IMG/VR virus record: IMGVR_UViG_3300021062_000021
Coordinates: 1 to 51,678 of that record
DNA from: a virus
DNA length: 51,678 nucleotides
Reading direction: 5' to 3' (one strand)
Part shown: piece after piece, positions 12,518 through 29,877 of the stretch
Position numbering within the stretch: position 1 is the stretch's first letter
Layout: each line of letters begins with the position of its first letter
Translations under genes and position numbers: made by a program
The notes under the pieces: generated by a model
Told to the model about the DNA's origin: nothing
Databases searched by the model: none
The model's input: the letters and a program-made list of their open reading frames with translations, nothing else

Positions 12518-12555
12518 CGTACGGTGAAGGGTCTGGGGCAGGCACATAGGCCCGT

Positions 12556-12875: not shown

Positions 12876-12881
12876 CCCTGC

Positions 12882-13430
12882 CTACATCTCAGGGTAGTCG
12901 TGTGCTCCAACGTAGCTATGCGTAATGACAGGATTCACGGTTGGGAATACACATCTCATGCTTTTTTCGTTCCAGCAGTAGGATGGGGGAAGGTGATAGA
13001 TATGCGCATTCCGCATCGAAGAAAGCGCTTGCCGGAAATTTATTGAATCGTCTTCTCTGGTAGGGTTGTCAGCTACGATCTTCGCCCACGTCTCTGCGTA
13101 GCGCCGACCACGCTTCCCATTGAACCAGAGCGTACCGCCGATCGGGACTTGCGGACTATGGAAGAACGCGGCCATGTCAGCGTCAATGGACTCAAAGAGA
13201 GATGGATATTCCAGGTATCGTGTGTCAGCATCCTGCCACAGTATCGGCTCGTTGTACTTGTCGATACACTCAAGCACAAAGGCAGATTTTTGATTACAGT
13301 TTCGCCACCAGCTTCCTAGGTCTGGACGGGGTGAGATTGCGCATCTTAACCCTACTCTTTCAGCAGACGCTTTTAGCGCCTCTGCATTGTCTTGGTATTT
13401 CTTGCTCGTATAGAAGCTGACAACGATCAC
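12882..13430 (-). CDS. GT-A-like glycosyltransferase, stand-alone gene
   Basis: 182 residues from GTG 13430, chosen because the conserved fold begins at IVVSFYTSKKYQDNA; a TTG at 13466 would add 12 residues. Residues around LWQDADTRY contain the D-x-D metal/nucleotide-sugar site, and VPIGGTLWFNG is the usual acceptor-side strand. The arrangement is the same as in the protein at 19176-19865, so the two are probably paralogues. It is an isolated leftward unit between integrase and late genes with a hairpin behind it, the hallmarks of a moron. It could alter host surface glycans in the lysogen. Confidence 0.75.
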   Translation of the reverse strand: MIVVSFYTSKKYQDNAEALKASAERVGLRCAISPRPDLGSWWRNCNQKSAFVLECIDKYNEPILWQDADTRYLEYPSLFESIDADMAAFFHSPQVPIGGTLWFNGKRGRRYAETWAKIVADNPTREDDSINFRQALSSMRNAHIYHLPPSYCWNEKSMRCVFPTVNPVITHSYVGAHDYPEM

Positions 13431-13459
13431 ATTCGAATTGTATTCCTTTCGGCATTGAC

Positions 13460-13488
13460 TTGACAACCGTATTTGGGTGCGGTACCGT
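13460..13488 (+). promoter_or_regulatory. Probable promoter of the 13528-13881 gene
   Basis: TTGACA (13460-13465), 17-bp spacer, TACCGT (13483-13488). Perfect -35, weak -10. Confidence 0.45.
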
Positions 13489-13527
13489 TCTCATTACCTG
13501 GAGCCCGGGGGACAGAAGGAGGGCTCT

Positions 13528-13881
13528 ATGCGTCAACAAAAAACCCCACACCAACAGATGGCGGCCGGCTTCTGGGTCACTTGCGGCGTGCTAGTCGCTC
13601 TAAGTATAGCCTTCGCGTTATACCAGACGAGCAGTGGGAATGCAACGCCTCATACTGTTTACTACCCAAGTGTGAGCAAAGCAAACGCAGAGGCCAAGCG
13701 AGAATTCAAGGCATGGAGTGGTATCGGATTTCTTCATTACCACTTTGACAAGAGATGCACTGTTCTTGAGAAAATAGGACCGGATTTCGTCAGCAAGGGA
13801 GTGGCATTTGGGAAACCAAAAAGACAGCAATTCGACGGGATGGATATGGAGCCATGCGAAATATGCGTCGGTAGAAAATAA
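13528..13881 (+). CDS. Single-pass membrane protein with C-terminal Cys motif
   Basis: 117 residues; ATG 13528 has GGAGG five bases upstream. Residues ~11-35 form a membrane helix (FWVTCGVLVALSIAFALY), and the remaining ~80 residues, probably periplasmic, include RCTVLEK and a terminal MEPCEICVG. It has its own promoter and terminator, so it is expressed apart from the late operon, perhaps in lysogeny. Function unknown; superinfection exclusion is one guess. Confidence 0.7.
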   Translation: MRQQKTPHQQMAAGFWVTCGVLVALSIAFALYQTSSGNATPHTVYYPSVSKANAEAKREFKAWSGIGFLHYHFDKRCTVLEKIGPDFVSKGVAFGKPKRQQFDGMDMEPCEICVGRK

Positions 13882-13906
13882 CCCCACAGTCTGGAGATTG
13901 TGGGGT
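13881..13906 (+). terminator. Hairpin terminator
   Basis: ACCCCACA pairs with TGTGGGGT (8 bp) directly at the stop of the membrane-protein gene. No U tract follows. Confidence 0.55.
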
Positions 13907-13930
13907 AAGGCTTGGGATGGGAACAGTAGC

Positions 13931-13959
13931 TTGACAGCATCATACACTTCGACTACTCT
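13931..13959 (+). promoter_or_regulatory. Promoter of the late (packaging) operon
   Basis: TTGACA (13931-13936), 17-bp spacer, TACTCT (13954-13959), 25 bp before the first gene of the terminase operon. Confidence 0.6.
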
Positions 13960-13983
13960 TTAATCAAGGCTTGGGAGGATACA

Positions 13984-14145
13984 ATGGCAGGACAGAAGCG
14001 GTCTTATTCTCTGGATCCCGTGATTCTTAGAATGCGGAATGCGAAGAAGATCGTAAGGGCTTTGGAGAAACTCGTAAAGCTGGAAACTTGGATTCGTAAA
14101 GAAGTAACCCGATTGGGGATCATGAAGCATGGGAGAAGCGGCTAG
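13984..14145 (+). CDS. 53-residue basic protein at the head of the terminase operon
   Basis: The ATG is preceded by GGGAGG. MAGQKRSYSLDPVILRMRNAK.. is a strongly basic helical protein with predicted DNA-binding character. It overlaps the small terminase gene by 17 bp. It may aid packaging site recognition; not recognised. Confidence 0.65.
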   Translation: MAGQKRSYSLDPVILRMRNAKKIVRALEKLVKLETWIRKEVTRLGIMKHGRSG

Positions 14146-16105: not shown

Positions 16106-17575
16106 ATGGGAACCCAGACAGCACAAAACCCTCTCCTCATCAGGAGCATTTCAGATTCGCTCTACGACTATGCGCTTTCATCTGCATACCGTAGCCCGTT
16201 CGTCTATGACCCCAGCTTTGCCCTCTACCGCACCCCGGATGTCTGGGAGATCGTGCGAAACGATGTGAGCTTTACCGCCAGCTTTGAGCGGTACTGCAAC
16301 AACGTGACAAAGCCTTGGCACGTCGAACCCCCAAAGAACAGCAAGGCAAAGACCAAGAACGGCAATACCTCCGACTACAAGAAGGATCAGCAGCTCTCGG
16401 GGATCGTGGAAGACGCCATCGGCCAGATCTTCGGCTTTGATGATTCCCGGTGGATTCTCAGCGAAGCGGCATTCATCGCCAGACGCTACGCATTCATCGA
16501 AAGCGATCGGCGTAGTATCAGCCTGGACGGCACCCAGGAAATGGATTGGATTATCCCGACCTTTATCAAAGACGTGGACCGCAGACGGTTCCGGTGGGTG
16601 CCGACGACTACGCAAAGCACGTCCGTTGCCGATCAGAAGCGGACCACGCATCTATCCTTCTTCAACAGCATTTCCAATCAGTGGGAGGACGTGTCCGCAC
16701 CCTTCCGAAATGCCCTGATCGAATACATCTGGTACAACACGGAAGACCGCGTGGGCTACGGGCGTGGGTGGCAAGAGCCCATCTACTTTGCCCATTACAT
16801 GAAGACCGGGACGATCCAGAAGGTGGCTGACGGCATTGACCGATGGTCCAAGGGGATCTGGTTGGTGAAGCTGGATGGCCTACGGAACTCCTCCACGGAC
16901 AAGACGAATGCGGACCTTCTCGCTGGCGCAAAGACCATGATTCAGACCATGCGAAGCGAGAATATCGGCGTCATGGAGAGCGTGGACGATATCCAAGTTG
17001 TGGAGTCCACCGGGACGGGTCACGAAATGGGCATGTCCTTCATCGACTACTGGGATAACGGGGTAGAGCGTCTCGTAAACGGTTCGACCAGGCCCGCTGG
17101 CCTTGGTGGTCAGAAGACTGGAGCTCGCGCCCAGAGCGAGACGGAAGAAGAAACCAGCGAGGCACACTATCAGCCGGCACGCGATAGGGTTGATGCTGTG
17201 CTCAACCGGGATCTGGTGGGGTGGTTCCTGTCTCAGCCGCTCAATCAGCAGAATATTAGGAAACTGGGGCTTGAGAAGGCCAAGCGGCCCGTTTACCATA
17301 CTAGGCAGGAGAAGAAGCAGACGATTGCGGATGTGGTGCAAAGCGCTGAGCTTTTCCTTGATCGTGGACTTCCACTCGAAGAACAAGAGCTTTACGAGCG
17401 TTGCGGCGGCTGGAGCGTGCCCAGCGAGGATAGCAAGACGGTAACCGGTCAGATGATGATGAAGCAGGGAGATATGATCGGGGACTTCGGGAACGCCGAA
17501 GAGATCAATACCAAGGCAGAGAAAGCCGCCGCTGCCGATCGCAAGGCGAAGCAGAAGCCTCCTGCGAAGAAATAG
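16106..17575 (+). CDS. Portal protein (DUF935 / Mu gp29-like)
   Basis: 489 residues. The C-terminal half carries the DUF935 signature (ARDRVDAVLNRDLVGWFL, LGLEKAKRPVYHTRQEK, LPLEEQELYERCG). The portal dodecamer forms the DNA entry vertex and binds TerL. The Lys/Ala-rich C-terminus is as in Mu-like portals. The stop abuts the next ATG. Confidence 0.9.
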   Translation: MGTQTAQNPLLIRSISDSLYDYALSSAYRSPFVYDPSFALYRTPDVWEIVRNDVSFTASFERYCNNVTKPWHVEPPKNSKAKTKNGNTSDYKKDQQLSGIVEDAIGQIFGFDDSRWILSEAAFIARRYAFIESDRRSISLDGTQEMDWIIPTFIKDVDRRRFRWVPTTTQSTSVADQKRTTHLSFFNSISNQWEDVSAPFRNALIEYIWYNTEDRVGYGRGWQEPIYFAHYMKTGTIQKVADGIDRWSKGIWLVKLDGLRNSSTDKTNADLLAGAKTMIQTMRSENIGVMESVDDIQVVESTGTGHEMGMSFIDYWDNGVERLVNGSTRPAGLGGQKTGARAQSETEEETSEAHYQPARDRVDAVLNRDLVGWFLSQPLNQQNIRKLGLEKAKRPVYHTRQEKKQTIADVVQSAELFLDRGLPLEEQELYERCGGWSVPSEDSKTVTGQMMMKQGDMIGDFGNAEEINTKAEKAAAADRKAKQKPPAKK

Positions 17576-17770
17576 ATGCCCGACACTTTCAAAATCGGCG
17601 GCATCGAGCATCGCAAGGGCGAGAAGTGCAAGTCCTGCTTCAATGGCTTCCCGTACAACTGCACTCGCTGTGATGGGTATATCCATGGCCATCAACTTCA
17701 ACATGGCGCTTCCATGGCCGTCGAAAGCGCTTGCGATATTTGTGGCGAGAAGTGGGCTCAAAAGGGTTGA
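17576..17770 (+). CDS. 64-residue zinc protein
   Basis: Starts right after the portal stop (TAGATG). CKSCFNGFPYNCTRC and CDICGEKW form two Cys-pair sites. The stop TGA lies inside the -35 box of the next promoter. Role unknown. Confidence 0.7.
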   Translation: MPDTFKIGGIEHRKGEKCKSCFNGFPYNCTRCDGYIHGHQLQHGASMAVESACDICGEKWAQKG

Positions 17771-17795
17771 CAATTCGCATTTGTGCGAATAGGAT
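17767..17795 (+). promoter_or_regulatory. Near-consensus promoter with palindromic operator in the spacer
   Basis: TTGACA (17767-17772), 17-bp spacer, TAGGAT (17790-17795). The spacer is a perfect palindrome, ATTCGCA-TTTG-TGCGAAT (17773-17790), an ideal dimer-repressor site. CGCA-N4-TGCG recurs at 30059-30070, and related half sites occur at 7344-7360 and 10851. Confidence 0.75.
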
Positions 17796-17801
17796 TCTTT
17801 A

Positions 17802-17915
17802 AGTAACTGAACGTTCTTTCACGACACTCGCCCCGGCTGATCCCCGGGTTGAGAATACTGACGCGCCAATAATAGCGGCATTCGGGTGCCCGACACATCC
17901 GAGTGCCGCTTTTTT
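17802..17915 (+). ncRNA. Candidate small RNA between portal gene and glycan cassette
   Basis: Runs from the predicted start of the 17767 promoter to a strong intrinsic terminator, about 114 nt, with no ORF having a ribosome site. The 5' half contains a CCCGG..CCGGG hairpin. Alternatively it is an attenuated leader controlling transcription into the downstream cassette. Confidence 0.55.
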
Positions 17916-17920
17916 ATTGG
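17866..17920 (+). terminator. Strong intrinsic terminator
   Basis: AGCGGCA-TTCGG pairs with CCGAG-TGCCGCT followed by six T. The outer CCAATAA/TTATTGG arms allow a bidirectional form. Confidence 0.85.
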
Positions 17921-17946
17921 TGCAGCGAGGACGGAGGACGAGCACC

Positions 17947-18033
17947 ATGGCCAGAGGCGCGGCACACGAAGCGTCAAGTAAGACTCGTCCTCGTATTTGC
18001 CGCCTCTGCCTCGCCTCTGTTCACGGTGCTTGA
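17947..18033 (+). CDS. Possible 28-residue peptide in a folded leader
   Basis: MARGAAHEASSKTRPRICRLC.. has GGAGG nine bases before the ATG. The stretch also folds extensively (AGCACC/GGTGCT, CAGAGG..CCTCTG, CGGCA/TGCCG), so it may instead be the structured leader of the next gene. Confidence 0.35.
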   Translation: MARGAAHEASSKTRPRICRLCLASVHGA

Positions 18034-18049
18034 GACTTCAGGAGGATAG

Positions 18050-18400
18050 ATGACCCACGAACATAAGGACAAGGAACCAGAGGATCTCGCCATTGAAGCC
18101 TACATGGACCAGCTCACGAAGAGCGTTGAAGCGCCCACCAACGACGAACGCAAAGCCCGATACTACCAGCGGTATGAGTTCATCAAGGGGGAGGCAAAGC
18201 GGTTGCAGATGGACCGCGAAGAGATCGAAGCGGGGAGCTCCAAGCAGAAGGAGCAGCTTCTTTCGAGCGTAAGAACCGCCTTTACGGAGAACTACAGGTC
18301 CAGGAAGAACATCGTCACGGAACTCCGCAAGCTGGGGGAGAAGATCACGGATCCTTTTATCCCAGAGAACTCCGTCTTCACACCGGAGCCGAAGGCGTGA
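18050..18400 (+). CDS. Hypothetical 116-residue helical protein
   Basis: AGGAGG ribosome site. Acidic N-terminus, then long charged helices (RYEFIKGEAKRLQMDREEIEAG..) and a Pro-rich tail. Opens the cassette operon; its stop overlaps the next start (TGATG). Not recognised. Confidence 0.75.
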   Translation: MTHEHKDKEPEDLAIEAYMDQLTKSVEAPTNDERKARYYQRYEFIKGEAKRLQMDREEIEAGSSKQKEQLLSSVRTAFTENYRSRKNIVTELRKLGEKITDPFIPENSVFTPEPKA

Positions 18401-19182
18401 TGCAGCTACGGGAGGGAGCCTGGGCCAGCGAGGCGTGCTACATCATCGGCGGTGGAGCATCTCTCAAGGGCTTTGACTTCTCTCGTCTCAAGAACAAGAA
18501 GAACAAGATCGCTATCAACCGTGCCTGGAAAGACGTCTACGACGCGGATATCTGGTTCTCAGAAGACCATAGGGTAATCACAGATCTCTGGGGAGCAGAT
18601 CCGATGTTTCAGGCATTCAAGGGTCTGAAAGTTCTGCACGCCCTATCACCTCAGTGTGCCGATGAGGCCCTCGCAGTGGATCCGACGCTGACCGTGATTC
18701 GTCGCAAGCGGGAGGACAAGTATTGGAGTCGCCACTTTCGAGATGGCCTTTCGATGTCCAGTTGTAGCGGAGTAGGGGCCATCAATATCGCCTATCTGCT
18801 GGGGGCCGAGCCGATCTACCTACTTGGCTTTGACTGCCGCACGGATGGCAACTACGTCCAGAATTACCACGATGACTACAAGCAAAAGGGATGGGACTGG
18901 ATGGTAGGTGGCAACAAAGCGGATGACTTCAAGAGCGATATGGAGCTCTGGGTGGCGATACACACTAGGGACCGCAAGATCATCAACCTCGTCAATCCGG
19001 CGCTTGAATCGGCCATCGAGTGTTGGCCCAAGGAGTTTCTGAATTGGGGGCTGTGCGACAAACACGAAGGCATGTATCGGGATATGTCGGGTGCCATTAT
19101 CTGTAAGCACTGCGGATACATGCCGACCGGTAATGTCCCGCCTCAAATGGTCATTGAGGCTGATAGGAATCTCGGATGCTGA
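18400..19182 (+). CDS. DUF115/MptE-like protein with C-terminal zinc ribbon
   Basis: 260 residues. The N-terminal CYIIGGGASLKGFDFSRL is the Rossmann-like opening of DUF115 proteins (relatives of motility-accessory glycosylation proteins and MptE). SMSSCSGVGAINIAYLLGAEPIYLLGFDC is the second conserved block. The C-terminus has CDKHEG..CKHCG. DUF115 members work in flagellin or surface glycan modification, which fits the neighbours. GTG 18397 is an alternative start. Confidence 0.75.
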   Translation: MQLREGAWASEACYIIGGGASLKGFDFSRLKNKKNKIAINRAWKDVYDADIWFSEDHRVITDLWGADPMFQAFKGLKVLHALSPQCADEALAVDPTLTVIRRKREDKYWSRHFRDGLSMSSCSGVGAINIAYLLGAEPIYLLGFDCRTDGNYVQNYHDDYKQKGWDWMVGGNKADDFKSDMELWVAIHTRDRKIINLVNPALESAIECWPKEFLNWGLCDKHEGMYRDMSGAIICKHCGYMPTGNVPPQMVIEADRNLGC

Positions 19183-19865
19183 AAGTCGTCGCCTTCTATA
19201 CGAACGACTTCTACTACGGCAAGTCCATCGACCTATCCCATTCACTGAATCGCTGTGGGGTCACTTATGAAATCAAGAAAGTCCAAGGCCCGCAAACATG
19301 GGCGGAAGCCGTCAGCTACAAGCCACGCTTCATCCTCGATCAAATGCTCTCGAGTTCCTGTGAGCGCATCCTTTACACCGACGTGGACAGCAAGCTGCTC
19401 CGAAACCTCCCGGCCAGTGACCTTAACGGTGACGTTTCGTTGGTCCGGTGGCAAAGGTCCCCGCATCACGAAGAAGAGGCGCTGACCGGAACGCTGTGCT
19501 TCAGGAACACCATGGAGGTCCGCGCCTTCATCCTTGAGTGGGCAGAGGCTACTGAGAAATACAGGCACTCCTTCACTCCAGAGCAGCACAGCCTTAAGGA
19601 AGTCATGGCCACCAGCAAGCTGAACTTTCAATTCCTCCCGCCTGAGTGGTGCTTCATCTTCGATGACATGAGGGAGATGTATCCAGATGCCCAGCCGATC
19701 TTTGAGCACTACCAAGCGAGCCGGGAATACCGGTCGCTTGAAGAAAGGAAGGCGAAGGGTAAGGCGGAAGTGCCCGACATGCAAGGGGAAGGGTTTTCTC
19801 CTAGATCAATGGGAAATCCGGCCGAATGGTCCAACTCGAGAGGGACCAGAGGGGCTTCTAGGTGA
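19176..19865 (+). CDS. GT-A-like glycosyltransferase
   Basis: 229 residues. VVAFYTNDFYYGKSIDLSHSL starts the nucleotide-binding fold, LYTDVDSKLLRNLP contains the D-x-D site, and LTGTLCFRNT is the acceptor-side strand. Same family as the 12882-13430 product. The last ~30 residues look unselected and are overlapped in another frame by a Zn-knuckle ORF, so the functional end may lie near residue 195. Coupled to the previous gene by a 7-bp overlap. Confidence 0.78.
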   Translation: MLKVVAFYTNDFYYGKSIDLSHSLNRCGVTYEIKKVQGPQTWAEAVSYKPRFILDQMLSSSCERILYTDVDSKLLRNLPASDLNGDVSLVRWQRSPHHEEEALTGTLCFRNTMEVRAFILEWAEATEKYRHSFTPEQHSLKEVMATSKLNFQFLPPEWCFIFDDMREMYPDAQPIFEHYQASREYRSLEERKAKGKAEVPDMQGEGFSPRSMGNPAEWSNSRGTRGASR

Positions 19866-19881
19866 GTACATCTTTTGGTAG
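19738..19881 (+). CDS. Possible overlapping 47-residue zinc-knuckle protein
   Basis: A second frame inside the end of the glycosyltransferase reads RRKCPTCKGKGFLLDQWEI.., a coherent DnaJ-type C-x-x-C-x-G-x-G sequence ending at TAG 19881. Start uncertain (TTG 19738, or ATG 19687). A frameshift that fuses it to the glycosyltransferase is also possible. Confidence 0.4.
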   Translation: MKKGRRRVRRKCPTCKGKGFLLDQWEIRPNGPTREGPEGLLGEYIFW

Positions 19882-20575
19882 CTACACCGCAAACAGCAGC
19901 CTCAATTGCTGGGTGGTTTTCCCAAGTGCCATTACGACCAGGGCAAACGCCGCTGTTGATGCATGGGCCGCTCAGGGCTATCACACGCTGGTTTATCAGG
20001 ACATGGGAGCCCAGCCCTGCGTTGCTGATGTTGTCCGCTTCGGGAACTTCCCCGGCTACTACAAGATCATCAACCACTTGGTTGAAGATGCTCTCTGCGA
20101 GGGTGCGGACGTCATTACTTGCGCTGGGGACGATATGCTCCCTGATCCGCAGGCCACCGCCCAAGACATCGGCCAGTACTACCTGAAAGTCTTTCCTAGA
20201 GGCGAAGGAGTTCTCCAGGCTTGCGGGGATAGACAAGGCATGGATAGCCGAGGCGTGCCGGCTGCGGAGCGTATCTGCGGAAGCCCCACGTTCGGGAGGG
20301 AATGGATTTTCCGCAGTTACGAGGGAAGGGGCCCGCTTTGGTCTGGATACCACAGCTTCTACGCTGATGAGGATCTGAAGGAAGTTGCCGAGAAGCTTGG
20401 CCTCCTCTGCATGGCTAGGCAATTCACGTTCCTTCATAAGCACTGGTCTTGGGGGCACATGTCCCGGCAGAGCTACCAGCAAAGAAACAGCGATAGCTAC
20501 TGGGACAAGGACGCTGCTCTCTTCTCAAGTCGCAAAGCAAGCGGCTTTCCCGACAGTGGATTGCTCTCGATATGA
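19862..20575 (+). CDS. Glycosyltransferase-like protein
   Basis: 237 residues from GTG 19862. WVVFPSAITTRANAAVDAW.. then DVITCAGDDMLPDPQATAQDI, with a D-D metal site typical of phage-encoded GT-A folds, and the His/Trp-rich segment FLHKHWSWG near the C-terminus that often closes the active site. Overlaps the next gene as ATGA. Confidence 0.75.
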   Translation: MSTSFGSYTANSSLNCWVVFPSAITTRANAAVDAWAAQGYHTLVYQDMGAQPCVADVVRFGNFPGYYKIINHLVEDALCEGADVITCAGDDMLPDPQATAQDIGQYYLKVFPRGEGVLQACGDRQGMDSRGVPAAERICGSPTFGREWIFRSYEGRGPLWSGYHSFYADEDLKEVAEKLGLLCMARQFTFLHKHWSWGHMSRQSYQQRNSDSYWDKDAALFSSRKASGFPDSGLLSI

Positions 20576-21327
20576 ACACGGCGCTTTCCGTCTTCTGGCC
20601 GATCTCCAACAACTTCGGGGATCTGATCGGCAAGTACATCGTTGAGAAGATGACTGGACGCAAGGTTGTCTACGCCGAGTCTCAGGCTGACTATGAGCAT
20701 TACATCTTTGGCGGGTCTGTTCTGAATCACGGGGGGCCTAAGTCCATTGTCTGGGGCGCTGGCCTTGGAACCCTTACTGATGGCGTCAACACTGCAATGA
20801 GGATCTGCGCTGTTCGTGGACCTTACAGCCGCGGACGGGCAATGGCGTGCGGTGCTTATGCACCGAAGGTCTACGGGGATCCAGGAATGCTCCTGCCCAG
20901 ATTCTACCAACCTACCTCTAAGCGCCAACATGCGATTGGCGTTGTGCCGCATTACGTTGATCAGTTCAGGGCCTACGACAGATACGACGGCCTAAAGATC
21001 ATCGACGTCTTCCAGCCTATTGAAGCCGTCATTGAAGAAATCAATTCCTGCGAACGCATTTTCTCGAGCTCGCTTCACGGCATTGTGGTTGCCCATGCCT
21101 ACGGGATTCCCGCTACATGGGTGAAGATCAGCGATAGCATCGGTGGTGACGGCACGAAGTTCAGGGATTACTTCGCCAGCGTTGGAATGGACGTGCCGCA
21201 ACCGATCGACATCCGCAATTCCATCAATATTCCCAGCATTTCAAGCGAAGTTCCCACGATCAATACAGACGCTTTCTGGGGAACTTGCCCGATTCCTGCT
21301 GAGTTCAGGAAGCCTGAATACAGATGA
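20572..21327 (+). CDS. Polysaccharide pyruvyl transferase family protein
   Basis: 251 residues with the CsaB/WcaK-type pattern: NNFGDLIGKYIVEKMTGR at the N-terminus, FGGSVLNHG..IVWGAGLGT in the first domain, VYGDPGMLLPRFY, then IFSSSLHGIVVAHAYGIPATWVK in the second. Family members transfer pyruvate from PEP as a ketal onto cell-surface sugars. In a phage this implies making or editing an acidic glycan. Both flanks overlap by ATGA. Confidence 0.88.
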   Translation: MNTALSVFWPISNNFGDLIGKYIVEKMTGRKVVYAESQADYEHYIFGGSVLNHGGPKSIVWGAGLGTLTDGVNTAMRICAVRGPYSRGRAMACGAYAPKVYGDPGMLLPRFYQPTSKRQHAIGVVPHYVDQFRAYDRYDGLKIIDVFQPIEAVIEEINSCERIFSSSLHGIVVAHAYGIPATWVKISDSIGGDGTKFRDYFASVGMDVPQPIDIRNSINIPSISSEVPTINTDAFWGTCPIPAEFRKPEYR

Positions 21328-21818
21328 GTATCAGCCGCGAAGTCTTGTCGAAGTACATCACGCCTGGATGTGTGTTCATTGAGACTGGGACGCGCTGGGG
21401 AGACACAGCCATCAAAGCGGCAGAACTGGGGGCCGGAACGGTTCACACATGTGAAATTGATCCAATGATGGCTGGTATAGCGAAGTCGCATATCGCTGAT
21501 GCTGTACCAGGTAAGAAGGTGTTCGTTTATGACATTCCCTCCACCAAACTTCTCTGCAACTCCTATCCAGGCTTCGAAAGTACCACGGTGATTTATCTGG
21601 ATGCCCATACCGATGCATCATCGGAGGTGCTTATGGAGCTTCACTGGATATTTACGTGGCAAGTGAAGCCAGCGGTCATCTTGATTGATGATATGCGGTG
21701 CATGCAAGGTTGGGGCATTGACGTGGATACCCTATGTGTAAAGCTCTGTGAGATGGGCTACACCTTGAAGAGAGAGAATGGCGTTGCCCCAGAAGACATT
21801 CTGGTGGCCCAGCGATGA
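21324..21818 (+). CDS. Class I methyltransferase-like protein
   Basis: 164 residues. FIETGTRWGDTAIKAAELGAGTVHTCEID fits SAM-binding motif I and the acidic end of strand 2, and VIYLDAHTD..VILIDDMR corresponds to motifs IV/VI. The D-A-H and I-D-D pattern is seen in sugar O-methyltransferase-like proteins. The substrate is unknown; glycan methylation is inferred from context. Confidence 0.72.
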   Translation: MSISREVLSKYITPGCVFIETGTRWGDTAIKAAELGAGTVHTCEIDPMMAGIAKSHIADAVPGKKVFVYDIPSTKLLCNSYPGFESTTVIYLDAHTDASSEVLMELHWIFTWQVKPAVILIDDMRCMQGWGIDVDTLCVKLCEMGYTLKRENGVAPEDILVAQR

Positions 21819-22696
21819 ACGTTGTTGCCTACTCCTACTTCCGCCACCAGAACTCTGCTTACGAGTCGGAGCGTGCCGGCGCGGGCCGTGGACGCTTCTT
21901 CGTGAACTACATCCGCGCTATCGTTCGTGGGCACCATGCGGTCTATCCAGACTGGGCGATGTGGATCTACCACGACGATCGCGTAACCGAATACGAGAAC
22001 TGGCCCATTCTCAAGAAGTGGGAGGAAGCGGGGCTGTTCAGGCTGATCTACATGGGGAAGGCAAACCGCCTATGCGAATCCATGCTATGGCGGATGCTGC
22101 CGATTTGGACTACTTCCGTGGAGCGGTTGATCTGCCGTGACGTGGACTCCCTCTCGACACCCAGGGAGCGCAAGGCCATTGACCGCTGGGTGCACTCTGG
22201 AAAGGCGGTTTCATCGCTCCACGATAGCGTTTCACACAGCGGTGACATCCTCATGGGCGGAATGGTGGCATTTCGGACCGAGTGGGTGAGTTATCGCATT
22301 CATTCATGGCAGGAGATGATTAAGAGGGCTGAAGGATTCGGCATCGATCTGGATCAGCACGGCTCCGACCAGCAGCTTCTAAACGCTTTGATCTACCCTG
22401 CCGCCGCTGCTGCTGGCGAGATCGTGAGTGAGGATAAGGCAAGTCTGGGCCCGCGGGATCACCCGATCGATCAGCTTACCGCGCACATCGGCGGGGCCTA
22501 TCACGTTGACCCTTGCGTGAAGTGGTTTAGCGAGAATAGGTCTTACTGCCCGAGATTGGATGACATCGAATCATGTGAGGCATGGCCAAAAGCCGTAGCC
22601 CTAGGAAAGCAGTGGCCATCCTTGGTGGACAGGATTAAGGAGCATATGGAACTTGGGAATAGTGGGGATATTCTTCCGCCAGTTAGTGGGGGCTAA
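21815..22696 (+). CDS. Glycosyltransferase-like protein
   Basis: 293 residues. The N-terminal VVAYSYFRHQNSAYESERAG.., middle SVERLICRDVDSLSTPRERKAID with the D-x-D site preceded by Arg, and HSGDILMGGMVAFRTEW as acceptor strand. A frequent type in phage and bacterial polysaccharide clusters. Overlaps the previous gene as ATGA. Confidence 0.75.
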   Translation: MNVVAYSYFRHQNSAYESERAGAGRGRFFVNYIRAIVRGHHAVYPDWAMWIYHDDRVTEYENWPILKKWEEAGLFRLIYMGKANRLCESMLWRMLPIWTTSVERLICRDVDSLSTPRERKAIDRWVHSGKAVSSLHDSVSHSGDILMGGMVAFRTEWVSYRIHSWQEMIKRAEGFGIDLDQHGSDQQLLNALIYPAAAAAGEIVSEDKASLGPRDHPIDQLTAHIGGAYHVDPCVKWFSENRSYCPRLDDIESCEAWPKAVALGKQWPSLVDRIKEHMELGNSGDILPPVSGG

Positions 22697-22698
22697 AC

Positions 22699-23538
22699 TT
22701 GAACTACGCCATCATCGCCACGAACCAGAGTCAGTCCTATGACTTCTTCGCACCAATCACTACGCTGTTCTGGAAGGAAGTCGTTGGCTTCGGAACGATC
22801 TGCTTCCTGACAGATACCGAGAAGGAATGGGCGAATCCTGCGGCATCGCTCGTCAAGGCCAAGACTGCGGAGGCGGGGGCTAAGGTGTTCCACATCGGTA
22901 CGCTAGAGGGCTACCAGAACGCTCAGGCCGCTCAGTCCTCCAGGCAGCACGCCGCTGCCCTAGACTTCCCGGAAGATGATGTCTTCGTTACCGGGGACAT
23001 CGACATGTGGAGCCTGGACCGAGAATGGTTCAGGCAGCACGACCCAGCTAAGTGGGACTTCACGAGCTGGTACGCCAATGCCTACGGGTGGCCCCATCCT
23101 CCCTTCCATCCAACACCGTACATCGCAGCAACGGTCAAGAAGTGGCGGGAGGTGGTTGGGCTTGAGGTCCGCGGCGAGATTCTGACTCAAATGCAGGCCA
23201 ACTTCGATCGCACTTTGACGCGGGACGCTTCGACGTGGCTTTCGTGGTGGCATGACGAACTCTTCTTCAATTCGAAGCTTAAGGCATGGGACGGCTATCC
23301 GGATCGGGTGCAGATGATTACCCGAGAAGGCCAGCCGCCCCATGACCGTATTGACCGATGCGCTTGGCCTACCAGTTTCGATTGGTCCAGGAAGTGGGTT
23401 GATACCCATCTGATTCGCCCTGCGGCAACTCAGGAAAACTGGCCTCGGGTTCGGCCGCTTGTGGAGCACTACATTCCGCAACATCTCGCGTGGGTTGATG
23501 AATACGTGTCGCTCTATCAGAGGGCTAAGTATGGCTAA
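22699..23538 (+). CDS. Glycosyltransferase-like protein (TTG start)
   Basis: 279 residues. TTG 22699 has GGGGG upstream and begins the first strand (NYAIIATNQSQSYDFF). DDVFVTGDIDMWSLDREWF contains the D-x-D. A SWWHDELFFN segment supplies the usual late His/Asp. The family resembles hypothetical GTs of surface-glycan clusters. Confidence 0.7.
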   Translation: MNYAIIATNQSQSYDFFAPITTLFWKEVVGFGTICFLTDTEKEWANPAASLVKAKTAEAGAKVFHIGTLEGYQNAQAAQSSRQHAAALDFPEDDVFVTGDIDMWSLDREWFRQHDPAKWDFTSWYANAYGWPHPPFHPTPYIAATVKKWREVVGLEVRGEILTQMQANFDRTLTRDASTWLSWWHDELFFNSKLKAWDGYPDRVQMITREGQPPHDRIDRCAWPTSFDWSRKWVDTHLIRPAATQENWPRVRPLVEHYIPQHLAWVDEYVSLYQRAKYG

Positions 23539-23770
23539 AGTCGGGGACATCGTTCTGTACAAGCCGCACAAGGAAGATCCGAAGTTCAAGAACGTCGGGC
23601 ATCGTCCGATCCTGCCGGCCGTGGTGGTTAAGGTCTGGGATGCCGTGGAGGATCTCCAGGTTCTTCCCACGATGGATGTGAACGTGCTTCAGGACGCGCA
23701 GACGCCTTTGACCTTCGTCCCGTTCGTGAAGCATGGGAACGAAGTTGGGCAGTGGAGTGAACGTGCCTAA
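23531..23770 (+). CDS. 79-residue SH3-like small barrel protein
   Basis: ATG 23531 overlaps the previous stop. MAKVGDIVLYKP..PAVVVKVWD..VLPTMDVNVLQD..LTFVPFVKHG is a pattern of five short strands typical of small phage barrels, some of which are structural. It is the only non-enzymatic protein in this stretch and could be a capsid decoration or adaptor. Confidence 0.65.
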   Translation: MAKVGDIVLYKPHKEDPKFKNVGHRPILPAVVVKVWDAVEDLQVLPTMDVNVLQDAQTPLTFVPFVKHGNEVGQWSERA

Positions 23771-24395
23771 CGTACAGAAAGAACCTGGGATCTGGGTCTT
23801 GGACATCATGGGCGGATGCCCCATGGTGGTCGATCCGCAGAAGCCGCACCTGGGCGGCAACATGGACGGCGGCGATAGTGCCACGGACTTCTCTGGCGAC
23901 TTGTTCCCGTGGCTTATAAAGACCTTTTCCATTACGAGTGTGCTGGATGTTGGGTGTGCCCAAGGACACGCCCTCCATGCATTCAAGTCGCTCGGCGTCA
24001 GCCAGCTCCTAGGGATCGAGGGGTTGGCCTACAACGCCAAGCACTGCAAGGTGCCGGTCATCGTCCATGACCTGACCACTGGACCTCTCACCGTAGAGGG
24101 CTATGACTTCGTGTGGTGCTCAGACGTTGCGGAGCACATCGAAGAAAAGTACGTCGGCAATCTCCTTCAGACTCTAGCCAGCGGCAAGATCGTGGCGATG
24201 GCTCAGGGTGGCCCTGAGATGGGTCATAGTGGCTGGCACCACGTCAACAATCAGCCGGAAGCCTATTGGATCGAGAAGATGAAGTCTGTTGGGCTGATCA
24301 CGGACGAGGCTCTTACCGCAGAAGCCCGCAAGCAATCCTCTCGTGGGATCTGGCCTGAATACGGTCGTATCTACAGAAATATCAGGAAGACATGA
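23763..24395 (+). CDS. SAM-dependent methyltransferase (class I)
   Basis: 210 residues from GTG 23763 (GGAG five bases upstream). VLDVGCAQGHALHAFKSLG is a textbook motif I, LLGIEG the end of strand 2, and FVWCSDVAEHIEEKYVGNLLQTL motif IV/post-motif as in Methyltransf_11/12/23 families. The substrate is unknown; location in the glycan operon suggests a sugar. Confidence 0.85.
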   Translation: MPNVQKEPGIWVLDIMGGCPMVVDPQKPHLGGNMDGGDSATDFSGDLFPWLIKTFSITSVLDVGCAQGHALHAFKSLGVSQLLGIEGLAYNAKHCKVPVIVHDLTTGPLTVEGYDFVWCSDVAEHIEEKYVGNLLQTLASGKIVAMAQGGPEMGHSGWHHVNNQPEAYWIEKMKSVGLITDEALTAEARKQSSRGIWPEYGRIYRNIRKT

Positions 24396-24886
24396 ACAGG
24401 CAAGACCTAGGCTATGGCAGCCACGTTCCAATCCTTGCCGCCGCCGTGGCACGTACGAGCGGCCCTGTTATTGAGCTCGGTACTGGGTGGTGGTCAACTC
24501 CCATGCTCCATATGCTCTGCAAGGGCCGGTATCTGCTGAGCTTGGAGACGGAGCCTGGGTGGCTGGCAAACTTTCAGTTCATGCAGTCTCCAAACCACAT
24601 CGTCAGGCAAGTTGATGACTGGTGGAAGGAAAAGGACATTGACGAAAAGGAATGGGCTGTTGCCTTCGTAGACAGCCACCCTGGGGAGATGCGCCCTGGT
24701 CTTGCACTTCGCCTGAAGGAGCGGACGCGGTTTATTGTGGCCCACGATACCGAAGCGGACATCCCGCCTTCAGGGGGGAATTACGGCTGGGCCAATCTCA
24801 AGGGACGCTTCAAGTACGAGGTCATCTACAAAGAGGTTCGGCCTTGGACCACGATCTACTCAGACCATGAGGAGTTCAAGCTCTAG
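24392..24886 (+). CDS. Methyltransferase-like Rossmann protein
   Basis: 164 residues. PVIELGTGWWSTPMLHMLCKGRYLLSLETE resembles motif I and II, AVAFVDSHPGEMRPGLALRL an Asp/His active-site loop, and FIVAHDTEADI the following strand. Similar proteins occur in phage and plant-pathogen glycan clusters with unknown substrates. ATGA-coupled upstream; its stop shares a G with the next GTG. Confidence 0.68.
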   Translation: MNRQDLGYGSHVPILAAAVARTSGPVIELGTGWWSTPMLHMLCKGRYLLSLETEPGWLANFQFMQSPNHIVRQVDDWWKEKDIDEKEWAVAFVDSHPGEMRPGLALRLKERTRFIVAHDTEADIPPSGGNYGWANLKGRFKYEVIYKEVRPWTTIYSDHEEFKL

Positions 24887-25587
24887 TGCGTGATCGGGCT
24901 ATCGTCTCCTGCTGCTACTCCCCGCAGAACTTCGGGTATTACAACTCCTACGCTGATCGCTTGGAGCGAAGCCTAGACGAGTTCGGGAAGGATGCCGATC
25001 GGATCATCTGGCGGAAAGAGTGGCCTCCCGGTTGTCCTCCCCATGAGGCGTTCCCATATGCCTTTAAGTTCTACGCCGTTAAGGACGCTTTCGAGAGGGG
25101 CTATCGATACGTGATGTGGCTGGATGCTGGAACGCAGGCCATTGCACCTATCGAATCCCTGTGGGAGCGCATTACGGACTACGGCTACGTGCTTCTCATG
25201 GGCACCGACCCTCTTGGCAGGTGGATCAGCGACTATGCACTACAGCACTTCGGATATACGAGGGAGAAAGCCAAGGAGATGAGGCTGGCTGGCGGTTGCC
25301 TTGTCGGGCTCGACTCCAAAAACCTCAAGGCGGGGGAGTTCTACGCCACTTGGGGAGAGATCGTTAGGGACAGGAAACTCCTGATGGGAGCGAATCGCAA
25401 GCCCATGCAGTGCGGGAATGTGATGCGTTCTCTGATGCTCTCGGATGCTGACGATTCTGTTATCTCCACCGATCCAACTGTTGAGGGGCATAGATCGGAT
25501 GAGTCCTGCTTCTCCCTTGTAATGGACAAGCTGCGAATGGAGCCGATTACATACGACCAGTGGAGCAGAGTTTGCAAGACCTACTGA
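24886..25587 (+). CDS. Glycosyltransferase-like protein (GTG start)
   Basis: 233 residues. AIVSCCYSPQNFGYYNSYADRLERSL.. then YRYVMWLDAGTQAIAPIESLW, where the W-L-D-A-G-T motif is the D-x-G variant of the metal site. LAGGCLVGL is the acceptor strand and SDESCFSLVMDKLRM the final helix. Substrates unknown. Confidence 0.75.
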   Translation: MRDRAIVSCCYSPQNFGYYNSYADRLERSLDEFGKDADRIIWRKEWPPGCPPHEAFPYAFKFYAVKDAFERGYRYVMWLDAGTQAIAPIESLWERITDYGYVLLMGTDPLGRWISDYALQHFGYTREKAKEMRLAGGCLVGLDSKNLKAGEFYATWGEIVRDRKLLMGANRKPMQCGNVMRSLMLSDADDSVISTDPTVEGHRSDESCFSLVMDKLRMEPITYDQWSRVCKTY

Positions 25588-25588
25588 C

Positions 25589-26170
25589 ATGAACATTCAG
25601 ATTATCGACAACCACAGCGTAGCGGTGGATCTCCTCAAGGGTGGTCCAGTGCTAGATGCCGGGGCCAGAGGATTCAGGTTCGCTAGGTGGTTCGCGGAAC
25701 GTGGGCATAGAGTCGTTGCATTAGACCCAGCTCCAGACATGTCCGACCCAAAGATAGATAGAGTGCATTTCTATAACGTTGGGTTAGTTGCAACGGAAGA
25801 GCGGGATGGGACTTGGTATCACGTCGAATGCGATGACAAAGAGGCCAGCTACATAACAAGGGCCAGAACCAACTGCCTTGCTGGCGTTGTGGACATTCGA
25901 TCCTTCCAGCTTGGACAATGGGACTTGGTTAAGCTCAACATCGAAGGCTCAGAATACGACATCCTAGACAACTGGCCCGGTCCGATCGCCAACCAAATCG
26001 TCTTCAGCTTCCACGAGCACACGGACCGCAAGCGGGGCCGTGAAGAGTGCGACCGCATCATCGATAAGCTGCGCCAGTGGTACGACATTCACAATCAAGT
26101 CTGGGAACCTAGGTACTGCACCTACGCGAACTACTGGGACGTCCTTGCCATCAAGAAGGGGTTAGCATGA
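25589..26170 (+). CDS. FkbM-family methyltransferase
   Basis: 193 residues. VLDAGARGFRFARWFAERGHRVVALDPAP is motif I with the strand-2 acid, and WDLVKLNIEGSEYDIL is the FkbM hallmark (K-x-D/N-I-E-G-x-E). FkbM enzymes are O-methyltransferases, often capping sugars in polysaccharides or acting on polyketides. ATGA-coupled to the next gene. Confidence 0.85.
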   Translation: MNIQIIDNHSVAVDLLKGGPVLDAGARGFRFARWFAERGHRVVALDPAPDMSDPKIDRVHFYNVGLVATEERDGTWYHVECDDKEASYITRARTNCLAGVVDIRSFQLGQWDLVKLNIEGSEYDILDNWPGPIANQIVFSFHEHTDRKRGREECDRIIDKLRQWYDIHNQVWEPRYCTYANYWDVLAIKKGLA

Positions 26171-27099
26171 GGGCATTCGTAACTGGAGTAACCGGGTTCT
26201 TGGGGTCGCACCTTGCGGCCACTCTCGAATGCCCAACGATAGGCTTGGTGCGCGACAGGTTCAGCTACATCTCTGCGGGGATGATGGGAGAGCCAACCAC
26301 ATCAAACGCTACCTTGTGCTTTGGGGATCTCTCGGATATCGCTGCCTTGGAGCGGATTCTAGCGGAGCATCGCATCGATACCGTCTTCCATCTTGCTGCA
26401 CAGACAGAAATTGGTGTCGGAGCTGCCGATCCAATCGGCACATTTGATGCGAATATCCGTGGGACGTGGAACATTCTCGAGGCGTGCCGACGGCAGAAAG
26501 TGGCTCGCATTGTTATTGCGTCCTCGGACAAAGCGTACGGGCGAAGCCTCCCGCCATACCGGGAAGATATGCCGCTCCTTCCTGATCGCCCTTACGAGAC
26601 GTCCAAGGCGTGCGTAGACCTTCTGGCCAAGACCTACGCTGATACCTACCAGATGAGCGTTGCCACTACGAGGTGTGTGAATCTTTACGGCCCTGGTTGC
26701 ATGACGCTCTCCACGCTGATCCCAAACACCATTCGCAGGGTCCTGAAGGGCCAGCGTCCCATCATGCGCAACGGTGGGGTTATGAGGAGGGATTGGCTCT
26801 ATGTAGGTGATGCAGTGGACGCCTACATCAAGCTTGCAGAAAGCAAGTACGTCGGGCCAATGAACTTCGGTAGCGGCGTAGGCGTGTCCGTCAAGGACAT
26901 CATTGCCAATATCCTTGAGTTGATGGGCTCTGACCTTAAGCCGATCGATGAAGTAGACAAGCACGGCGAGATTGTTGACCAGTGGGCTGATTCCAGCCTC
27001 GCCAAGAAAGTCTTGGAGTGGACGCCTTCTCACACGCTGGCTCAAGGTCTCAGGAAAACGGTGGATTGGTACACGGCTTATTTTGTAGGTGCGAAGTGA
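26167..27099 (+). CDS. NAD(P)-dependent sugar-nucleotide epimerase/dehydratase (extended SDR)
   Basis: 310 residues. GVTGFLGSH (Gly7, 10, 13) binds NAD(P). HLAAQTEIG, IASSDKAYGRSLPP and Tyr143-x3-Lys147 (YETSK) form the catalytic triad region. CVNLYGPGC, MRNGGVMRRDWLYVGDAVDAYIKL and DSSLAKKVLEWTP close the domain as in CDP-glucose or GDP-mannose 4,6-dehydratases. It would supply a deoxy or epimerised sugar donor to the neighbouring glycosyltransferases. Confidence 0.9.
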   Translation: MRAFVTGVTGFLGSHLAATLECPTIGLVRDRFSYISAGMMGEPTTSNATLCFGDLSDIAALERILAEHRIDTVFHLAAQTEIGVGAADPIGTFDANIRGTWNILEACRRQKVARIVIASSDKAYGRSLPPYREDMPLLPDRPYETSKACVDLLAKTYADTYQMSVATTRCVNLYGPGCMTLSTLIPNTIRRVLKGQRPIMRNGGVMRRDWLYVGDAVDAYIKLAESKYVGPMNFGSGVGVSVKDIIANILELMGSDLKPIDEVDKHGEIVDQWADSSLAKKVLEWTPSHTLAQGLRKTVDWYTAYFVGAK

Positions 27100-27953
27100 A
27101 GTTAATCGGTTTGATGCTCGCCCGGAATGAAGAGTGGGTTATCGGCTGTTCTCTCCGTGCCGCCCTCAAGTGGTGCGATAAGGTCGTGGTAATCGATCAC
27201 GCAAGTACGGACGGTACCAGCAAGATCATTCTGGATGCTGCCTTTGAGTATGACGGCAGGGTCATTCTGCACAAGTGGCCAGAGACAGAACACTGGGACG
27301 AAATGTTTGTGCGCCAGATGAGTTTGGAGCTTGGCCGTGCTGCCGGCGGAACGCATTTTGCCATTGTCGATTGTGACGAGGTTCTGACGGCCAACGTTAT
27401 CCCGAATATCCGCGAAGAGTTCGAATGGCTTTACGATGGGCAGTGTCTAGAGGTCCCGATGCTGGCGATGCGGGATCTGGATCACTATCAAGACGATTCA
27501 TCCGTCTGGTCCCGTGCTTGGTTGACTCTGGGGTTCAAGGATCGAGCTAACCTCTCATGGAGGCCGCAGGAGGATGGGTACCACTTCCATTCTAGACCGC
27601 CGCACGGAGCCTTGGAGTCTCGCCGTCGACACCTTGCCGATAAGAGCCAAGGTGGGGCAATGCATCTCCAGTGGTGCAACCAGCGCCGCATCAAGGCAAA
27701 ACACGCCCACTACGCCGCAACGGAATGGATCCGTTGGCCTAGCCATCGTGGAATGGACGGCATCAATAGCACGTATTCCATGGCCCTAGAGCAGCCAGAG
27801 CACGTTACTGAGGCCCCAGCGTTCTGGTGGGTTGGCCTAAATCGTGATCTCATTAAAACTGATGGGGTGCCTTGGCATGAGGAAGACCTGAAGCGCCTGA
27901 TCGATAAACATGGCCGTGCGTTCTTCGATGGGATCGATCTGAAGGGGTACTAG
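27096..27953 (+). CDS. Family 2-like glycosyltransferase
   Basis: 285 residues from GTG 27096, which overlaps the upstream stop (GTGA); the longer ATG frame would run 78 bp into the dehydratase. GLMLARNEEWVIGCSLRAALKWCDKVVVIDHASTDGT is a typical GT2 opening with the S-x-D-G-T phosphate loop, and HFAIVDCDEVL holds the D-x-D. It lacks transmembrane segments, so it is cytosolic. Confidence 0.85.
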   Translation: MKLIGLMLARNEEWVIGCSLRAALKWCDKVVVIDHASTDGTSKIILDAAFEYDGRVILHKWPETEHWDEMFVRQMSLELGRAAGGTHFAIVDCDEVLTANVIPNIREEFEWLYDGQCLEVPMLAMRDLDHYQDDSSVWSRAWLTLGFKDRANLSWRPQEDGYHFHSRPPHGALESRRRHLADKSQGGAMHLQWCNQRRIKAKHAHYAATEWIRWPSHRGMDGINSTYSMALEQPEHVTEAPAFWWVGLNRDLIKTDGVPWHEEDLKRLIDKHGRAFFDGIDLKGY

Positions 27954-28739
27954 ATGGGCGGAACTATAGTCACGGATCTGGTCGGAAAGCTGGATGTATC
28001 GAAGATCAAGCCATTGCGGGATTACATTCTCTTTGAGGTCATGGATCGCAATCGCTCCGCTGGTGGTCTAATCATTCCAGGCAAGGAGAAGACGGAGTGT
28101 CTCTACGGCAGGGTGATCGCTACCGGCCCTGGAGAGGAGAGTCCGCGGACTGGCGAAGTGTTTCCGATGGACATCAAGCCCGGTGACATTATTGTTTCCG
28201 TGCAGTACATGGGCGAGAAGATCCAGACAATCGGAAAGAAATACCGCCTTCTTCGTGAACACGGGGTCTGGGCAAAGATCAAGATCGACTACCGTAAGGA
28301 AGGCGATTGGGACATCACAGACATTGAGCCGTACCGAAATCACATTCTCGTCAGAATGGACTCCGACGAAAAGAATCTGAAAGGGAACGTCTATCTACCG
28401 GCCAACCCTCAAGTGATGTTCCGGATGGCGACTCTTGTTAAGTCTGGTCCTGGGCTTAGGGATCCCAAGACTGGCGTTGTGTCCAGCATGGGGGTGAATG
28501 CGGGTGACAGGGTAGTCATCCTGCGCTTTGCAGGGTGCATAATTCGCGTGAAAGGCATTGAGCATCGTCTCGCCAGCGGAGAAGATGTTGAGGGTGTCAT
28601 GGATGCTGGGAGCGTTGTAGATGTCTTCGCGGATCCAACCGCGCATCCTAAACCAGTAGATGACTACGAGGTCGTTCCTGAGTCTCATCTTGACGACCTT
28701 ACCGAGAAGATCCTTAAGGATTCAGGGGGAATGAAATGA
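27954..28739 (+). CDS. Tandem GroES-like co-chaperonin (two domains)
   Basis: 261 residues. Residues ~8-105 read as a Cpn10 domain: KIKPLRDYILFEV, mobile-loop-like NRSAGGLIIPGKE, GRVIATGPGE, DIKPGDIIVSVQYMGEKI. Residues ~120-215 repeat it: DIEPYRNHILVRMD, LKGNVYLPAN, ATLVKSGPG, GVNAGDRVVILRFAG. The second mobile loop is less canonical. Phage co-chaperonins (T4 gp31, RB49 CocO) replace GroES to fold the capsid protein, and the position just before the head genes supports this. A fused double domain in a phage is unusual. Confidence 0.85.
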   Translation: MGGTIVTDLVGKLDVSKIKPLRDYILFEVMDRNRSAGGLIIPGKEKTECLYGRVIATGPGEESPRTGEVFPMDIKPGDIIVSVQYMGEKIQTIGKKYRLLREHGVWAKIKIDYRKEGDWDITDIEPYRNHILVRMDSDEKNLKGNVYLPANPQVMFRMATLVKSGPGLRDPKTGVVSSMGVNAGDRVVILRFAGCIIRVKGIEHRLASGEDVEGVMDAGSVVDVFADPTAHPKPVDDYEVVPESHLDDLTEKILKDSGGMK

Positions 28740-29014
28740 AATGGTACTTCACGCCCAGCTTGGGGCACTATGGCGCGGCGATCGAGATTGACGACGATGG
28801 GCACGCTGGACGCATGGCGTTCGCGTCCATCAGCCCACAAGGGCTGTCGTTCGTCAAGTGGGCACCCCTGGAAGACAAGATGTGTGGGCCAAAGGGCTTT
28901 ATCAACATGAACAGCCTCATTTTGTACGAGGCGCTACCTGACCAGGTGGCCAAACTTAACAGCATGTTCAGTGTCATTATCCCCGTCAATGGCAAGCCGA
29001 GGCTACTCCCATGA
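28736..29014 (+). CDS. Hypothetical 92-residue protein
   Basis: ATGA overlap with the co-chaperonin and overlap with the head gene behind. Alternating strands (MKWYFTPSLGHYGAAIEIDDDG..) suggest a small beta protein. A role with the co-chaperonin or head is plausible from position only. Confidence 0.7.
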   Translation: MKWYFTPSLGHYGAAIEIDDDGHAGRMAFASISPQGLSFVKWAPLEDKMCGPKGFINMNSLILYEALPDQVAKLNSMFSVIIPVNGKPRLLP

Positions 29015-29877
29015 TGGCTGCTCACAAGGAATTGGATCGCTTTCTAGATAAGAAGGCGACTCTGTTTTCAGATGCACTGCTGAATATCGTTCGAGCGTAC
29101 TACGGGGTTGGGAAGAGTATTCCAGAGGCCAGAAAGGATCTTGCCGAACTCATCAGCGACACCATGATCCTAGCCGACCTCAACGGACGGAAGCGCCTCT
29201 GGATGGAGTACGACTATGTAAAGGACCACATTGCTAGGTTTGGAGAGCTGCCAGACAGCACCCCTTTGGCCCCCAACCTAACGTTTAGGGAGGCTGTTCA
29301 GGATCTAGTTACAAGGGAGCCTCGCCTCATCAAGAGCGCCAGCGCGGTAGCTGAGAAGTACTCCGTAGAGCACATCTTCGCAATGGCCCGTAGCGCAGAG
29401 CTTCATATTACAGAGCGTGCACAGAAGGCCATTGAGACGTTCTTGGTCAACAACACGTCCGCAGAGGCGCTGTCCAAGACCATTCAGGAGATTGGCCCCT
29501 TTAGCCAAGCTTACGCTGATACGGTTTACCGCACCAACGTGGCCACGGCTTATAACGATGGGCGCATGGACCAAGCGTCCGATCCAGAACTGGAAGACAT
29601 CATCGTTGGCTTCCGGTACGAAGGCATTGCCGATGCCCGCACCAGGCACAATCACAGGATTGGATTTGGAACGATCGCACCGAAAGACGATCCTATTTGG
29701 GCCAAGTACAAGCCGCCCAATGGCTACAACTGTCGTTGTGGGCTTGAGTTCGTAAGTCGCTTTGAGGCTGAACGACTTGGGCTTATGGACAATGGGAAGA
29801 TGAAGCCCCGATACTCTGCGCCCCCCAGCCAGCTTAACCCTGATCCTGGGTTCAAGTCGGAGAGTGTGTTTTCGTGA
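29011..29877 (+). CDS. Head morphogenesis protein (SPP1 gp7 / Mu gpF-like)
   Basis: 288 residues. The helical N-terminus is followed by the family block AYADTVYRTNVATAYNDGRM, then RYEGIADARTRHNH and PPNGYNCRCGLEFVSRFEAERLGL, with the conserved R-x-x-H and C-x-C. These minor capsid proteins bind near the portal and assist head assembly or DNA ejection. Its separation from the portal gene by the cassette shows the insertion point. Confidence 0.88.
   Translation: MMAAHKELDRFLDKKATLFSDALLNIVRAYYGVGKSIPEARKDLAELISDTMILADLNGRKRLWMEYDYVKDHIARFGELPDSTPLAPNLTFREAVQDLVTREPRLIKSASAVAEKYSVEHIFAMARSAELHITERAQKAIETFLVNNTSAEALSKTIQEIGPFSQAYADTVYRTNVATAYNDGRMDQASDPELEDIIVGFRYEGIADARTRHNHRIGFGTIAPKDDPIWAKYKPPNGYNCRCGLEFVSRFEAERLGLMDNGKMKPRYSAPPSQLNPDPGFKSESVFS

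Follow-up and report, generated by a model that had tools for sequence, protein, structure and literature searches.

What does a tailed phage do with some 9.5 kb of glycan chemistry set among the genes for its head? The question is raised by the viral record IMGVR_UViG_3300021062_000021 of IMG/VR, whose positions 1 to 51,678 were analysed whole and are called the window here. Between the portal gene (16106-17575) and the head-morphogenesis gene gpF (29011-29877) lies a block of fourteen genes on one strand (18397-27953), encoding a DUF115/GT42-like protein, six glycosyltransferase (GT)-like proteins, a pyruvyl transferase, one short-chain dehydrogenase/reductase (SDR), four methyltransferase-like proteins and one protein of 79 residues (Table 1; genes are named by their first position). 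The reading that we favour, with a probability of about 0.45, is that a phage-encoded, soluble glycan-assembly pathway glycosylates virion proteins.

An earlier note, made from the letters of this DNA, had proposed a pathway of sugar activation, glycosyl transfer, pyruvylation and methylation at this place, and the genes, their order, strand and coordinates are as it described them. Its gene list was sound except that the 79-residue gene (23531-23770) had been overlooked, and the flanking portal and head-morphogenesis genes are where it put them, but four further genes (17576-17770, 18050-18400, a double-domain GroES gene at 27954-28739 and 28736-29014) also lie in between. Junctions inside the block range from -38 to +2 nt, and the ATGA/GTGA coupling attributed to most genes was found, as 4-nt overlaps, at 7 of the 13 (the remainder being -38, -8, -7, -1, +1 and +2 nt), with an eighth overlap (GTGA) between 18397 and the gene before it, 18050-18400. 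The block is followed with no gap by GroES, 28736 and gpF.

Relatives were sought in IMG/VR, where scans with five block queries recovered only a 48-kb contig (L003/G001, L003 below) and portal queries added L002 (a 5.9-kb contig), L005 and L006; portal and pyruvyl transferase queries against 84,980 bacterial and archaeal genomes returned no relative. Profile searches with the block products gave strong matches for five of them (26167, 20572, 27096, 23733 and 25589, all reaching their Pfam cut-offs), a good match for the DUF115-like protein, and weak matches or none for the others. The pyruvyl transferase, the sugar-nucleotide SDR and the DUF115-like protein of the earlier note are thereby borne out. 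The SDR also matches TIGR01181 (dTDP-glucose 4,6-dehydratase RmlB; 4e-49, 167.5 bits), below the equivalog cut-off of 365.1, and its best matches among solved structures are to dTDP-glucose 4,6-dehydratase. Protein 18397, with homologues in L002, L003 and L005, has weaker matches to MptE/DUF115 (0.012) and to the CstII GT42 profile (E about 0.009).

Table 1. Features in and around the block, with the evidence for each assignment (positions in the window)
Position	Strand	Assignment	Evidence
12882..13466	-	GT-like gene outside the block	paralogue of 19176: blastp 4e-10, hhalign 97.9%
17767..17795	+	promoter-like site TTGACA-17-TAGGAT	10/12 match; same site in L002 3914-3942
17874..17910	+	strong intrinsic terminator: stem of 15 pairs followed by T6	100% identical in L002
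17925..18030	+	noncoding leader with crossing inverted repeats A-B-A'-B'	conservation in L002; one compensatory A-U to G-C change
18050..18400	+	116-residue protein, first gene past the noncoding gap	phrog_1061 only, 0.028; homologue in L002
18397..19182	+	DUF115/MptE-like, GT42-sialyltransferase-like	phrog_4603 "alpha-2,3-sialyltransferase" 6e-17
19176..19865	+	GT-like, nucleotide-diphospho-sugar transferase-like	PF03407 (Nucleotid_trans) 0.09, L003 homologue 0.014; invariant DxD
19862..20575	+	GT-like, without informative family match	DDM motif invariant; SelA 0.14 only; 59% identical in L003
20572..21327	+	polysaccharide pyruvyl transferase	PF04230 4e-11, 43.8 bits (cut-off 25.3)
21324..21818	+	methyltransferase-like (weak)	PF13649 0.13
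21815..22696	+	GT-like, without Pfam family	invariant DxD; phrog of unknown function
22699..23538	+	GT-like, without family	invariant DxD; 65% identical in L003
23531..23770	+	79-residue protein	open frame; L003 homologue at 10839-11078
23733..24395	+	class I S-adenosylmethionine methyltransferase	PF08241 1e-5, above cut-off
24392..24886	+	methyltransferase-like by motif only	without family match; 58% identical in L003
24886..25587	+	GT-like (GT8-like, weak)	L003 homologue PF01501 (Glyco_transf_8) 0.029; 66% identical in L003
25589..26170	+	FkbM-family methyltransferase	PF05050 6e-5, 23.7 bits (cut-off 22.7); TIGR01444 8e-6
26167..27099	+	SDR, nucleotide-sugar 4,6-dehydratase/epimerase-like	PF01370 (Epimerase) 3e-53, 181 bits (cut-off 20.9)
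27096..27953	+	GT2 glycosyltransferase	PF13704 2e-6, 28.5 bits (cut-off 27.5); DxDE invariant

The claim of six GT-like proteins holds firmly for 27096, whereas for 19176, 19862, 21815, 22699 and 24886 a GT identity is suggested more weakly, by sub-threshold matches, motifs and context. In 19176, 19862, 21815, 22699 and 27096 a D-x-D or DDM motif is kept unchanged among relatives; 24886 is without a canonical DxD and has D-A-G in its place. Distant matches of 21815 were found in cyanophage S-SRM01 and an Acinetobacter phage. Profile searches of solved structures with 19176, 21815, 24886 and the pyruvyl transferase yielded nothing useful, and the folds predicted for 22699 and 19862 from two-sequence alignments (pLDDT 43 and 41) were too poor for their Foldseek matches to be used. 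Since profile-profile comparison among the GT-like proteins joined only 19176 and the gene at 12882-13466, the orphan GTs cannot be recognised as duplications of each other. The gene at 12882-13466 sits between the integrase gene and terS, and a homologue in G001 likewise lies outside the block. Among the four proposed methyltransferases, 23733 and 25589 exceed their cut-offs, whereas 21324, by a sub-threshold match, and 24392, by motif, are weak candidates; the acidic, methylated glycan of the earlier note is accordingly plausible as far as PF04230 and FkbM go, with little or no profile support from the latter two genes.

By hydropathy, none of the block products spans a membrane, and a six-frame scan of the genome showed no credible polytopic membrane protein; no flippase or polymerase was seen, and the initiating phosphoglycosyltransferase PF02397, the sole initiator family searched, was not found in a search in which 9 of 14 controls were detected. 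That membrane proteins, flippase, polymerase and phosphoglycosyltransferase were not seen tips the balance towards soluble, stepwise glycosylation of protein, short of establishing it. NTP_transferase (PF00483) was not found either, in a search that detected all of its controls, and since only one SDR that modifies nucleoside diphosphate (NDP)-sugars is present, the activated sugars must be supplied largely by the host. The sugar-activation part of the earlier proposal is therefore not sustained, whereas glycan chemistry next to the head genes is, with the SDR, the pyruvyl transferase, several GTs and methyltransferases in one cotranscribable and conserved block.

Judging from their families, the block enzymes would carry out sugar transfer, pyruvylation and methylation, and we infer that they act on one glycan and that its acceptor is a virion protein. 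NDP-sugars would come mostly from the host, one of them being modified by the SDR of the phage; in the cytoplasm, six or seven glycosyltransferases would attach the sugars singly; the pyruvyl transferase would add an acidic pyruvate ketal, and the FkbM-type and other methyltransferases would cap hydroxyls. With an acceptor encoded by the neighbouring genes, head or tail subunits would carry a coat that is capped and negatively charged.

The same enzymes might instead recode the host surface, acting, while the phage infects or is lysogenic, on cytoplasmic precursors of lipopolysaccharide (LPS), capsule or exopolysaccharide and relying on the flippase and polymerase of the host, with superinfection block or masking of the lysogen as the purpose. 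Sets of pyruvyl transferase, FkbM and SDR genes are typical of surface-polysaccharide clusters, and the integrase gene of the window genome makes a temperate life possible. The lack of membrane protein, flippase, polymerase and phosphoglycosyltransferase speaks against this explanation, as do the position of the block in the morphogenesis module rather than beside the integrase gene and the failure to recognise an integrase in the relative with the same block. We regard host-surface recoding as somewhat unlikely. A second alternative, in which the GTs and methyltransferases hypermodify bases of the phage DNA, draws on the Dam methylase that the phage also carries and on virus-encoded GTs that hypermodify DNA elsewhere (Pyle 2024, cited in PMC12619734). 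It appears highly improbable here, since thymidylate-synthase-type hydroxymethylase (PF00303) was not found in a search with working controls, and a pyruvyl transferase and a 4,6-dehydratase-like SDR would be unusual for DNA modification; Tet_JBP (PF12851) gave no match, in a search whose control was silent too.

Comparison with related phages, as the earlier note had suggested, showed the block to be kept in L003 and its start in L002. In L003, an independent contig, it occupies the same position in nearly the same order, which is beyond chance, mostly at 52-75% amino acid identity: 45% for the DUF115-like protein, 52% for 19176, 59% for 19862, 60% for the pyruvyl transferase, 56% for 21815, 65% for 22699, 75% for 23733 (the highest value in the block), 58% for 24392, 66% for 24886, 55% for FkbM, 70% for the SDR and 39% for the GT2 protein. 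Because this range of 39-75%, at the same position, brackets the identities of the portal (64%) and gpF (52%), the block has been passed down with the head genes. Codon usage agrees, with a correlation of relative synonymous codon usage of 0.93 between block and structural genes and of 0.90 between one half of the structural genes and the other. For the only two block genes testable against L002, the ratios of nonsynonymous to synonymous change (dN/dS), rough figures since synonymous sites are near saturation, are 0.08 (DUF115) and 0.26 (19176) and indicate purifying selection. Sequence comparison thus argues that the block is an old, settled, selected and vertically inherited part of this lineage. 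A recently acquired cassette was considered and rejected, codon usage and divergence both matching those of the head genes, and the same agreement, with the head genes rather than with a swapped cassette, counts against host-surface recoding.

The two blocks are not identical. At the place of 21324, L003 has an FkbM-type gene that is not recognisably homologous to it, and its block further contains a second SDR resembling GDP-fucose synthase and additional small genes. Two small genes of that block (11412-11765 and 12887-13213) encode a C-x5-R motif (VCNGGNVRS and VCEGGNSRS) like that of low-molecular-weight phosphatases; neither had a family match, and counterparts are absent from the block of the window. 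In L005, several genes (10263-14042), some of them structural-looking, separate the portal from the DUF115 gene, so the portal-side junction evidently accepts insertions. The different methyltransferase and the extra genes of L003, together with the several block proteins lacking a family assignment, would suit a set of unrelated transferases with separate targets, or enzymes of a soluble saccharide or secondary metabolite, in place of one glycan; the tight coupling of the genes and the retention of most of their order in two phages make this distinctly unlikely.

Whether the block belongs to the head operon, as the earlier note had it, is a separate matter. It adjoins the head genes and runs into gpF, but on the portal side a 279-nt noncoding gap (between 17770 and 18050) with a terminator and a promoter-like site sets it apart. 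Across 17767-18045 the nucleotide identity to L002 is 91%, with 100% across 60 nt, whereas the neighbouring coding sequence is at 73% with saturated synonymous sites, which argues for strong constraint on a regulatory element. The equivalent gap of L003 is unrelated in sequence, yet holds a sigma-70-like TTGACA-18-TATACT site (11/12). A promoter scan of the whole region returned no more sites than shuffled sequence, so it is conservation that makes the case for the promoter. The block may form a transcription unit of its own, apart from the portal gene and leading into GroES-gpF, and simple membership of the head operon is improbable; for that reason, expression timed with the making of heads is not shown. 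A promoter-like site just 5' of the block would also suit host-surface recoding.

Downstream of the terminator, the leader holds two inverted repeats in crossing order (A-B-A'-B'), an order also present in the leader of L002, in the gap of L003 (4455-4554) and in L005 (13734-13828) upstream of the DUF115 gene. Stems were scored with a home-made stacking score against 200 shuffles, the elements having been found after the fact. The scores were -61 for L003 (shuffles -26.6, sd 3.0; stems of 15 and 16 bp), -58 for L005 (-27.1, sd 3.4; stems of 13 and 13), -40 for L002 (-26.8, sd 3.3) and -39 for the window leader (-28.1, sd 3.4), and for each of them 0 of 200 shuffles scored as low. Because several other places in a scan of the whole window score as low as its leader, the latter is weak alone, and the point is carried by L003, L005 and the compensatory change in L002. 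The crossing elements are mostly unrelated in sequence and, in three lineages, precede the block; a further one in the window (10690-10830, minus strand; score -48) shares CCGG[CT]TAGATGAGC with L005. Rfam gave no credible match for these elements, which possibly form a pseudoknot or alternative hairpins and are offered as a lead. The fuller picture, in which six or seven soluble GTs make an acidic (pyruvylated) and O-methylated oligosaccharide with which the phage coats its virion, and in which their block is under a structured leader RNA (promoter, terminator and crossing stems) that recurs among related phages in shape and not in sequence, is doubtful as a whole.

Several points weigh against glycosylation of virion proteins. 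Bacterial clusters for capsule and LPS likewise contain pyruvyl transferases, FkbM and DUF115 proteins. No acceptor was identified, and the block's own promoter-like site makes coupling to head assembly uncertain. The orphan GTs showed no homology to annotated phage GTs, and 19862, 22699 and 24886 had no match in 50,697 phage records. Phage clusters with multiple GTs, among them the SDR/GT clusters of cyanophages, have been interpreted as remodelling the host surface (PMC7824862), and cyanophage S-SRM01 has a similar mixed cluster. The block resembles the clusters of cyanophages and jumbo phages (P-SSM2, S-SRM01) in bringing several GTs together with SDRs and an FkbM methyltransferase. Unlike the block, those clusters include sugar-activating enzymes and belong to very large genomes, the S-SRM01 cluster adjoining photosynthesis genes; here there is no NTP_transferase, the genome has 51.7 kb, and the position is between portal and gpF.

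To our knowledge, glycosylation of the virion has been proven for few phages. In the mycobacteriophages Che8, Corndog and Myrna, the phages' own GTs glycosylate capsid and tail-tube proteins (PMC12363180). The GTs of the block are likewise phage-encoded, and they are inherited with structural genes; mycobacteriophages are reported with one or few GTs, whereas the block has six or seven together with a pyruvyl transferase, an SDR and methyltransferases. PF04230-type pyruvyl transferases of jumbo and Lak phages (Cobetia phage Carin-5 and Lak phages) are 30-38% identical to 20572, but in Carin-5 and Tunturi_5 the neighbouring genes do not form a block of GTs and methyltransferases. Serotype-converting modules (gtrABC, oac) share phage-borne glycan change as a possible outcome; they depend on polytopic membrane proteins, of which hydropathy, the one method applied, revealed none here. 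In the papers searched we found no precedent for a phage whose structural region carries a cluster with pyruvyl transferase or FkbM genes. Among distant TerL relatives whose portal and head regions are annotated, Paracoccus phage Pkon1, Aeromonas phage 56, ctfzr933 and others are without the block, and nothing comparable to the whole of it was found among the isolated phages tested.

If virion proteins are indeed the acceptors, complex virion glycans would be an inherited part of some phages, with a pathway that diverges along with the head genes. The block offers protein targets for mass spectrometry and GTs of unknown family; were the host surface the target, surface recoding would have a new layout here, one that does without membrane proteins.

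The record carries an exact 126-nt repeat close to one end (15-140) and at the other (51553-51678), the usual sign of a self-closing assembly, and is thus probably a complete, circularly closing genome, though classed as linear in IMG/VR. It codes for terminase subunits, a weakly recognised portal, a Mu-F-like head protein, a major head protein and tail genes, and its left part holds small minus-strand genes. The GroES-like protein (27954-28739), encoded directly 3' of the block and before gpF, has two Cpn10 domains per chain and is present in L003 too.

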